Source of the DNA: Bacillaceae bacterium IKA-2
GTDB lineage: Bacteria > Bacillota > Bacilli > Bacillales > Anaerobacillaceae
Length of the DNA stretch: 64,000 nucleotides
NCBI GenBank assembly: GCA_031761875.1
Contig: CP134492.1
Location: 1 to 64,000 of the forward strand
Direction: 5' to 3'
Part shown: positions 117 to 63,840 of the stretch, piece by piece
Layout: the number at the start of each line of letters is the position of its first letter
Numbering within the stretch: position 1 is the stretch's first letter
Notes under the pieces: generated by a model
What the model was told of the DNA's origin: nothing
Databases searched by the model: none
What the model saw: only the letters and a program-made list of their open reading frames with translations
Translations under genes and position numbers: made by a program

Positions 117-214
117 CTATTTTCAGTCAAAGAAATTCATTCTTTGAAAACTAGATAACAACCGTACACACATTCAAGATTTGAGCTTCATTGAATTCAA
201 TTCGTCTTATTTTT

Positions 215-18310: not shown

Positions 18311-18696
18311 TTTATCCTCACCCGCTCTATTCGTTTATGTATGTGAATGAATTTCATAATGAAGTATAGTTTCCTAACATTTTACCATAAGAATTAACAT
18401 ATATTGTAGATAGCAAGAAAATGCAAGCGCCTTGTTAGCGGCGAGTATGTTGAAGCTAGACAGACACGAAAATTTTATGCTTCCTTACTTTATTAAAATA
18501 TAAAATTTTCATCTTTTCAAATTCACCACTTTGTTGCAATTATTTCTGTCAGAAGCATGTTTTATGCTACAATAATTAAAAGTGCAAGGAGCAAATTTCG
18601 CTTAACTACCTCATACATTTTGTCTGCGACAGCGTAATATTGCCTTCCTGGCTAACTTTTATGTTTTTAATTCTAACTGAAAAATAGGTGATACTT
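18311..18696. other. Intergenic region between acpS and the rhomboid gene
   Basis: Divergent promoter region of 386 bases. It holds a short copy of the GAAAAGC..AGCTAGAC repeat (18417-18461) and is otherwise AT-rich, with no open frame or RNA gene recognised. Confidence 0.6.
18417..18461 (+). repeat. Short form of the GAAAAGC...AGCTAGAC repeat
   Basis: 45 bases beginning GAAAATGCAAGCGCCTTG and ending TTGAAGCTAGAC. Both ends match the long copies at 56579-56700 and 63642-63759, but the internal hairpin region is missing. Confidence 0.65.
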
Positions 18697-39192: not shown

Positions 39193-39247
39193 GGCTAGCT
39201 TCAGGTACCTAACGTCTCGATCACTTCAGACAGCGCTTCTGCTTTTC
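39193..39247 (-). repeat. Short form of the GAAAAGC...AGCTAGAC repeat, degenerate
   Basis: On the minus strand 55 bases begin GAAAAGCAGAAGCGC and end CTGAAGCTAGCC, matching both ends of the family at 56579 and 63642 with differences. The gap 39110-39327 holds only this and the opuA terminator. Confidence 0.5.
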
Positions 39248-56405: not shown

Positions 56406-56760
56406 TTAGTCTTTGTTACTAAAATTTTCCTAGATGCCGTTACAAATAGGATTTGAATAGTAGGATACTCAATGCCCATAAAGAAATTTACAAGCTTGTA
56501 TTACGGACTTCTCTAATATTCTCTACACACTAAAATATGCATGGTACACTTGTTTCGTGATAACCATGCATATTATTAGAAAAGCACAAGCGACTTGGTA
56601 GCTGCGAGTATATTGGAGACTCATCATAAAGAGGCGCTCTTGCCTCTGCATGGTGAGTTGAAATATTCGAGAAGCTAAAAGCTAAGTGCTGCAGCTAGAC
56701 AATTAGAAAAGCACAAGTACCTTGGGCACTTACTACTAAATTATATTCTAACTTGTATTT
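56406..56760. other. Intergenic region between glmS promoter and glmM
   Basis: 355 bases. About a third is a complete copy of the structured repeat (56579-56700), followed by the beginning of another. The rest is AT-rich without recognised features; ATGCATGG / CCATGCAT (56537-56572) forms a weak inverted repeat. Confidence 0.6.
56579..56700 (+). mobile_element. Structured intergenic repeat, long form (122 bp)
   Basis: Begins GAAAAGCACAAGCGACTTGG and ends GCTGCAGCTAGAC. Inside, ACTCATC and GGTGAGT enclose GAGGC-GCTCTT-GCCTC. It aligns end to end, with covarying inner stem, with the insertion at 63642-63763. Directly after it GAAAAGCACAAGTACCTTGG (56705-56724) starts a truncated second copy. 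It has no coding capacity. Confidence 0.75.
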
Positions 56761-63349: not shown

Positions 63350-63504
63350 ATGTTAACAACTGATATATTAAAACAATTTTCTGTCCCTGTCAATACTTTA
63401 AATTTGCTTCATGCAGCTTTGCGACGAGGATACGACGCTAGGAGTACCGCAGGAGCACAATACCAAATACTATTCAGTCAATTTACTTATTTAGAAAAAA
63501 TTTT

Positions 63505-63620
<116 letters not shown>

Positions 63621-63641
63621 CTATTTTCAGTCAAAGAAATT

Positions 63642-63763
63642 GTCCAGCTCCAACACCTAACTCCTTGTGACGCTTCAACTCACATTCAGAAGTTAAAAAA
63701 CAACTTCTTCGGTAAGTCTCCATCGCACTGCGAAGTTGACCAAGGTGTTTCCGCTTTTCGTTT
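63642..63763 (-). mobile_element. Structured repeat inserted in the 5S-23S spacer (122 bp)
   Basis: The spacers of the two rRNA operons are identical up to GTCAAAGAAATT (131-137 equals 63635-63641) and again from CATTCTTTGAAAAC (138 equals 63764). Operon 2 has 122 extra bases. On the minus strand the insert has GAAAAGCGGAAACACCTTGG near one end and TGTTGGAGCTGGAC at the other, like the element at 56579-56700, with an inner AGAAGTT/AACTTCT hairpin. A TT at both borders might be a 2-base target duplication. Confidence 0.85.
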
Positions 63764-63840
63764 CATTCTTTGAAAACTAGATAACAACCGTACACACATT
63801 CAAGATTTGAGCTTCATTGAATTCAATTCGTCTTATTTTT

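Follow-up and report, generated by a model that had tools for sequence, protein, structure and literature searches.

An apparently mobile palindromic repeat in an rRNA spacer of Bacillaceae bacterium IKA-2 shares its hairpin feet with the left end of some IS200-type elements

Our results show that one 5S-23S rRNA spacer of Bacillaceae bacterium IKA-2 has gained a 122-base insert, and that this insert belongs to a large family of non-coding, structured repeats that are, or were, mobile, as the original prediction had held. The repeat has about 100 matches in the IKA-2 genome and occurs in roughly seven out of ten sampled genomes of the order. The size and spread of the family, its tail, the YAA motif at its flank, its bias towards one replication strand and its resemblance to an IS200-type left end go beyond that prediction. 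We propose that the element is non-autonomous, that it functions in the manner of an IS200/IS605-type insertion sequence, from which it may be derived, and that it moved as single-stranded DNA. Our confidence in this reading is evenly balanced.

The stretch of DNA that we analysed (the window) comprises 64,000 nucleotides, positions 1 to 64,000 of contig CP134492.1. Scores in bits refer to the covariance model R1 unless another source is given; R1 was built from alignment A1, which holds 21 full copies, including 56579-56700 and the identical twin of the window insert. The window contains the following features.

63642..63763, minus strand: sequence inserted between the 5S and 23S rRNA genes (122 bases; exact splice test; 92.7 bits)
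63642-63759, minus strand: element core within the insert, sense with the rRNA transcript
117..214, no strand assigned: empty site, spacer of operon 1; the insertion point is junction 137/138
63505..63620, minus strand: 5S rRNA adjoining the filled spacer (Rfam RF00001, 94.7 bits)
56579..56700, plus strand: second full-length copy (90.1 bits; RNA fold of -47.4 kcal/mol, z -4.71)
56706..56725, plus strand: left end of another copy, truncated, which follows 56579-56700 immediately in tandem (left-end pattern match; sequence)
39193..39247, minus strand: internally deleted short copy with both ends kept (16.2 bits, E 0.023; sequence)
18417..18461, plus strand: internally deleted short copy, read directly in the sequence and absent from the R1 matches
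18462..18489, plus strand: 3' tail of the 18417 copy (tail pattern with 3 mismatches at 18467-18489)

If the 122 bases at 63642-63763 are taken out of the spacer 63621-63840, exactly the 98 bases of the operon 1 spacer remain, so the two spacers are identical apart from the insert, as had been claimed. The edge of the insert is ambiguous by 2 bases, with three of six tested placements working (starts 63640, 63641 and 63642), and any flanking repeat at this site is at most 2 bases long (0-2; possibly AA). Read by eye, the insertion point in operon 1 is the loop of a short hairpin, TCAAAGAA-ATTCA-TTCTTTGA.

Nine 5S-23S spacers occur in the genome, a single contig of 4.42 Mb, and of these seven are empty and two filled; one further match of the spacer search is a 5S gene without a spacer. 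The filled spacers, at 63642 and 3761650, carry identical inserts (the twin is G000:C1:3761650-3761771). Hence a single insertion copied between operons explains both, and this may be how the filled pair arose. Among the empty spacers, that of operon 1 and one other are identical, three show 1, 1 and 5 substitutions, and another two are longer by 9 bases. These additional bases lie at the insertion point (L046 and L047, operons at 1112466 and 138266 of the same genome) and include a GTC like the element end; either excision or chance could have left them there. No insert is found at the corresponding place in 4 of the 14 distinct spacers extracted from congeners (L397, L398, L410 and L412, from genomes G001 and G002). 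The remaining ten have other content there, and in genome G004 the matches of one operon abut at the insertion site. The seven empty spacers of IKA-2 and the insert-free spacers of its congeners thus indicate insertion rather than deletion in operon 1. That operon 1 lost 122 bases from an ancestral filled state has nothing that we found in its favour and, in the face of both observations, next to no chance of being right. The gain by operon 2 that had been predicted is hence upheld. The prediction had also spoken of a dated empty site; the empty site is there, but no date was established.

A second insertion can be read from a T-box leader at G000:C1:231097, which holds a copy of the element. 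With the insert, the leader scores 97.3 bits in Rfam across 451 nt, compared to 145.2 bits across 244 nt without it in the congener G006, and the element is absent from the leader in six of six congeners. The congeners are 64-82% identical over long matches, which is too distant at most intergenic sites, and the T-box site alone was aligned base by base. By eye, the place of insertion in congeners is a simple hairpin. Since the rRNA place is a hairpin loop as well, both insertions seem to have gone into hairpin loops. The left flank of the T-box copy, together with the element start (TACCGAAAAGCGTAA), occurs again behind the copy, with a possible repeat of TACC, perhaps of 4 or more bases. This repeat may reflect duplication of the target, or the native hairpin may happen to produce it.

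The family to which these copies belong is large. When R1, a model made from the long copies as had been suggested, was searched against the genome, scoring 150 of 1526 first-look candidates, it gave 102 matches at E up to 0.01 and 99 at 0.001. The insert and the copy at 56579-56700 are indeed both full-length members. The resemblance goes beyond chance: a left-end pattern matches 37 times in the genome and its reverse not once. The weakest R1 matches are truncated copies. The two short forms noted earlier turn out to be deleted copies, the one at 18417 being followed by the family tail. The core mostly runs over 116-122 nt from GAAAAGC to AGCTRGAC, and tandem copies separated by 2-5 nt are common (91 of the 102 copies were read). 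By eye, many copies also share a tail, about 40 nt long and with TTTATRCTTTCTTACC at its end; as a pattern with up to 3 mismatches it has 30 matches in the genome, and the reversed control has 0. Some copies in other genera carry a similar tail. Likewise by eye, an additional hairpin (GGTTACTCGTCGCAAAACC..GAAGTAACTC), some 57 nt long, lies close to the 3' end of many copies (e.g., L124, L111 and L118), which looks as if one repeat had been inserted into another. In the congener G001, three dispersed copies are identical over 120 nt and have different flanks, which speaks for recent movement there.

The core is one long hairpin of seven helices. Standard pairs make up 95.2% of the cells of A1, and in 25 of the 34 pairs both partners have changed; neither value was attained in any of 500 shuffles, and when partners are slid by one to three columns pairing falls to 28-43%. 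It had been stated that the element has no obvious terminal inverted repeats. This has to be corrected, because the whole element is a long imperfect palindrome with imperfect inverted ends: the first and last 20 bases match as inverted repeats at 9-14 positions over the 21 rows of A1 (mean 12.0; 11 in the window copy). The unpaired feet of the hairpin are conserved and read GAAA and RGAC on one strand, which is GTCY and TTTC on the other.

Imperfect inverted ends, small size and high copy number are what one would see in a classical MITE (a derivative of a DDE transposon that moves by cut and paste, has inverted ends and duplicates a short target), and the possible AA at the rRNA site and TACC at the T-box would then be target repeats. 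We consider this quite unlikely, however, because the mismatches between the ends are themselves conserved and asymmetric, and because of two observations on flanks and orientation given below.

The hairpin also allows us to ask which strand folds, because a G-U pair on one strand is an A-C mismatch on the other (one to three pairs with more than 20% G-U were left out). On the GAAAAGC strand, G-U exceeds A-C by 41 to 10 in 62 cross-genus representatives (p 1.5e-5), compared to 40 to 29 in 34 representatives from the own genome (p 0.23, not significant) and 13 to 7 in 11 rows of A1 (p 0.26, not significant), where it should be kept in mind that alignments A2 and A3 were made to the model and may lean towards G-U. 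The cross-genus excess favours folding of the GAAAAGC strand, which is off the lagging-strand template.

YAA precedes the core directly in 34 of 66 non-tandem copies of IKA-2 (background 5.3%, p 7e-26). In G001 it does so in 17 of 19 copies (background 4.9%, p 9e-21), a sample chosen from the best model matches and required to start with a GAAAAGC-like match. CAA (14 copies) exceeds TAA (3 copies) in G001, hence the YAA flanks are not just stop codons. The other 32 of the 66 copies have no YAA, among them the window insert (AAC) and the T-box copy (ACC). On tailed G001 copies the Y of YAA often differs, by eye, between the two sides, which counts against a MITE with a duplicated target.

Behind the tail, the element tends to meet runs of A. 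Of the 30 tail loci in the genome, 19 were readable by regular expression, and 18 of these have a run of four or more A within 20 nt. A hairpin of -10 kcal/mol or better stands behind the run in 9 of 18 tails as opposed to 79 of 1205 other A-runs (p 5e-7). About half of the tails thus adjoin a terminator-like hairpin, a location that may merely reflect gene ends. Alternatively, one could argue that an RNA copy of the GAAAAGC strand, with its A-rich 3' end, was reverse transcribed from a T-rich primer next to terminators. The A-runs, the hairpins behind them, the G-U excess in one of three sets and the strand bias would all fit. This reading is nevertheless highly improbable to us, for it leaves the preference for YAA at the 5' edge unexplained, and the rRNA insert, a copy without a tail, moved too.

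The copies are also strongly polarised with respect to replication. We set the replichores from rRNA gene direction and GC skew, with the right replichore spanning about 0.3 to 2.1 Mb and the terminus assumed, and found that 91 of 102 copies oppose the replication fork (p 8e-17). The same holds for 70 of 81 clusters (p 1e-11) and for 80 of 89 copies away from origin and terminus. Of copies between convergent or divergent ORFs, 27 of 29 oppose the fork (rough ORF finder; 90 copies placed; tandem copies counted singly), hence gene direction alone does not explain the bias. Three of five other single-contig genomes with listed matches were examined as well, their replichores being placed from skew samples; in these, 28 of 34 clusters oppose the fork (G285 10/12, G242 12/15, G273 6/7; p 2e-4). 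Such a bias is not expected of a MITE. For the IS200/IS605 family, PMC5371812 describes an orientation that follows replication and movement that prefers the lagging-strand template.

The genome has seven matches to the Y1 transposase family PF01797, most of them RAYT-like and one (L004) IS200-type, and with its filters off R1 finds a weak match of 15.5 bits at the hairpin in front of L004. We then compared the left ends of 20 IS200-type loci from 19 genomes, a comparison made post hoc, after the weak match had been seen. Of the 11 matches that R1 has at E up to 1 in these loci, the best eight, at 15.5-17.6 bits (E 0.004-0.017), all fall on the IS200-type left-end hairpin. In six alignments both feet match up, and 2 nt take the place of the 85 inner positions of the model. 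A matching left end is present in nine of the 20 loci, one of them in the own genome, and the other 11 lack it; the nine are homologous to each other and hence count as one observation. Every one of the 21 rows of A1 has 9 or 10 of the 11 bases of the left-end GTCTAACTCCA, and 14 of the 21 contain the left-end CGCTTTT. Under the rule that both feet be present, 353,680 shuffled bases gave 0 chance pairs. The shared GTCTA foot is on the transposase-sense strand of the IS, and on the element it is on the strand that lies on the lagging-strand template.

The anatomy of the element makes a Y1 enzyme plausible, and no resident enzyme is its constant companion. Our counts cover 299 genomes of the order and ignore kinship between them. 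For an IS200-type transposase (best PF01797 match at E up to 1e-30), 55 genomes have both, 159 the element only, 25 the IS only and 60 neither. This corresponds to 55 of 214 carriers and 25 of 85 non-carriers, an odds ratio of 0.83 (p 0.56), i.e., there is no co-occurrence. We therefore reject the IS200-type transposase as a constant companion and do not file the family as a member of IS200/IS605. Such a transposase may have been active in carriers in the past. For any Y1 enzyme (PF01797), the numbers are 176 with both, 38 with the element only, 45 with Y1 only and 40 with neither (odds ratio 4.1); some of the 38 carriers without a PF01797 match are incomplete genomes. For RAYTs (REP-associated Y1 transposases) of the R8 type, at E up to 1e-30, they are 134, 80, 23 and 62 in the same order (odds ratio 4.5).

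The last two ratios, together with the mostly RAYT-like Y1 genes of the genome, could be taken to mean that the element is a true REP-type palindrome, mobilised by a RAYT of the same genome. Against this, R1 has no match at E up to 1 within 1.5 kb of any of 30 RAYT loci (30 genomes, 25 of them carriers, one of them the own), and near the own RAYTs, with filters off, no match exceeds 12.1 bits (all at E 0.14 or more). The element also lacks the GTAG or GTGG tag, and the own RAYT-like genes L005 and L008 have other short palindromes in their flanks (the GGTGCCTGTCCC.. and GGTGTCAGACACC types). We regard this explanation as unlikely. As a resident partner, a RAYT thus shows no linkage and a co-occurrence that is positive but incomplete. 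The palindromes at L005 and L008 are perhaps a separate REP-like system. In a tblastn search of five own RAYT proteins against 333 loci, many of which are foreign element loci, only the own L005-L010 matched.

How could an IS200/IS605-like element without a transposase gene move? The mobile unit would be the hairpin of 116-122 nt with its conserved unpaired feet, followed in many copies by the tail. A Y1-type transposase supplied in trans would recognise the feet in single-stranded DNA on the lagging-strand template and would cut next to TTR (YAA on the other strand). The strand would then be pasted without a regular target duplication, and tandem arrays would form through insertion of new copies at the end of existing ones. 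IS608 reportedly has the target TTAC and ISDra2 the target TTGAT. A start with TTR would thus be common to both and to the target of the element on its GTCY strand, an analogy that can serve as a lead only. In IS200/IS605 elements, according to PMC6006769, a tetranucleotide at the foot of the hairpin reads both the target next to the left end and the final bases of the right end.

Several observations count against our proposal: the lack of co-occurrence with IS200-type transposases, the excess of G-U that one of three sets shows on the strand off the lagging-strand template, the copies without YAA, the repeat at the T-box and the 38 of 214 carriers without PF01797. Compared with IS200/IS605, the element is alike in that both its feet match the left-end hairpin of the resident IS200-type element, and perhaps also in its target motif at the flank, its replication-tied orientation and the absence of a regular target duplication (features described in PMC6006769 and PMC5371812). 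It differs in being one hairpin throughout, with the 2-nt loop enlarged to about 85 nt inside the matched feet, and in carrying no transposase gene. It is conceivable, if rather doubtful, that the hairpin of an IS200-type left end was freed from its transposase gene, became enlarged and gave rise to an order-wide family of self-spreading palindromes, which would persist without such a transposase and be served by a passing Y1 or other enzyme. If this were true, REP-like repeats could arise without a RAYT as their source, namely from the end of an IS200-type element.

The family is spread widely. R1 finds it in all seven genomes of the genus, with at least 10 to at least 99 matches per genome, and, with a cut-off of E 1e-5, in 214 of 299 genomes and 82 of 116 genera of the order; the order-wide survey scored 12 candidates per genome, so its copy numbers are lower bounds. 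Among the matches listed, the exact 21-base left end is present in Anaerobacillus, Evansella, Litchfieldia, Metabacillus, Mesobacillus, Lederbergia, Cytobacillus, Neobacillus, Sutcliffiella, Aquibacillus, Sporosarcina and Bacillus, and in one record each labelled Paenibacillus and Chryseobacterium, labels that may be wrong. Two element queries found no match in 72,556 plasmid records and none in 50,697 phage records.

Strong covariation, conserved loops, presence in so many genomes and a polarised orientation could also be expected of a functional RNA or DNA element under selection (a cis-regulator, a small RNA or a replication-linked site) rather than a selfish one. We think this very unlikely, because both sites that we compared are empty in congeners and because the copies are dispersed, tandem and numerous throughout the genus.

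Rfam has nothing over the two full window copies at E up to 5, and no family at gathering score over the element in nine loci (E up to 1); the T-box copy is overlapped by an anti-hemB match at 16.8 bits (gathering score 49.5, E 0.33). The literature that we searched contains no description of the family, and neither the 16-base left end nor its 14-base reverse was found there. Hence the repeat is probably unannotated where it lies in rRNA spacers, T-box leaders and gene ends.

Among described repeats, REPs and REPINs are similar in being intergenic, high-copy, palindromic and clustered and in being thought to be moved by Y1 enzymes (PMC6006769, PMC3733652). REPs are 20-65 nt long, with a GTAG/GTGG or CGTC tag and, for GTAG, RAYT neighbours, whereas our element has 116-122 nt plus a tail and no linked RAYT. 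The bcr1-bcr18 repeats of the Bacillus cereus group are likewise repeated, mobile-like sequences of 100-400 bp in Bacillaceae, but by the descriptions in PMC6542083 and PMC3446304 they are specific to that group and have TTTAT motifs, while our element occurs in many other genera; we set the two apart by description. Bhal-1 of Bacillus halodurans is a stem-loop repeat in a related species, with 74 nt and 36 copies. It is shorter than our element and, compared by its description in PMC2267715, may equal part of the element family. Bhal-2 is said in the same paper to contain CRISPR repeats. PMC3733652 leaves open how CGTC-tagged REPs arise and spread without a partner. With its covariation, its filled and empty sites, its strand bias and its IS200-like feet, the family described here is a tractable case for the origin and spread of palindromic repeats without partners.

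Two further observations concern the surroundings of the family. Three Y1 transposase genes (L007, L009 and L010) lie within 5 kb at G000:C1 503278-507696, and the L009 and L010 proteins are about 97% identical over 280 aa, likely a tandem duplication. A second type of palindromic repeat (GCGACGAGGATACGACGC..AGGAGTACCGCAGGAGCAC or similar) stands beside the 5S gene at 63400-63466 of the window, and the same type is found inside the congener 5S-23S spacers L395, L402, L409, L416, L417, L422 and L404. Hence repeats of more than one family accumulate in the rRNA spacers of the genus.
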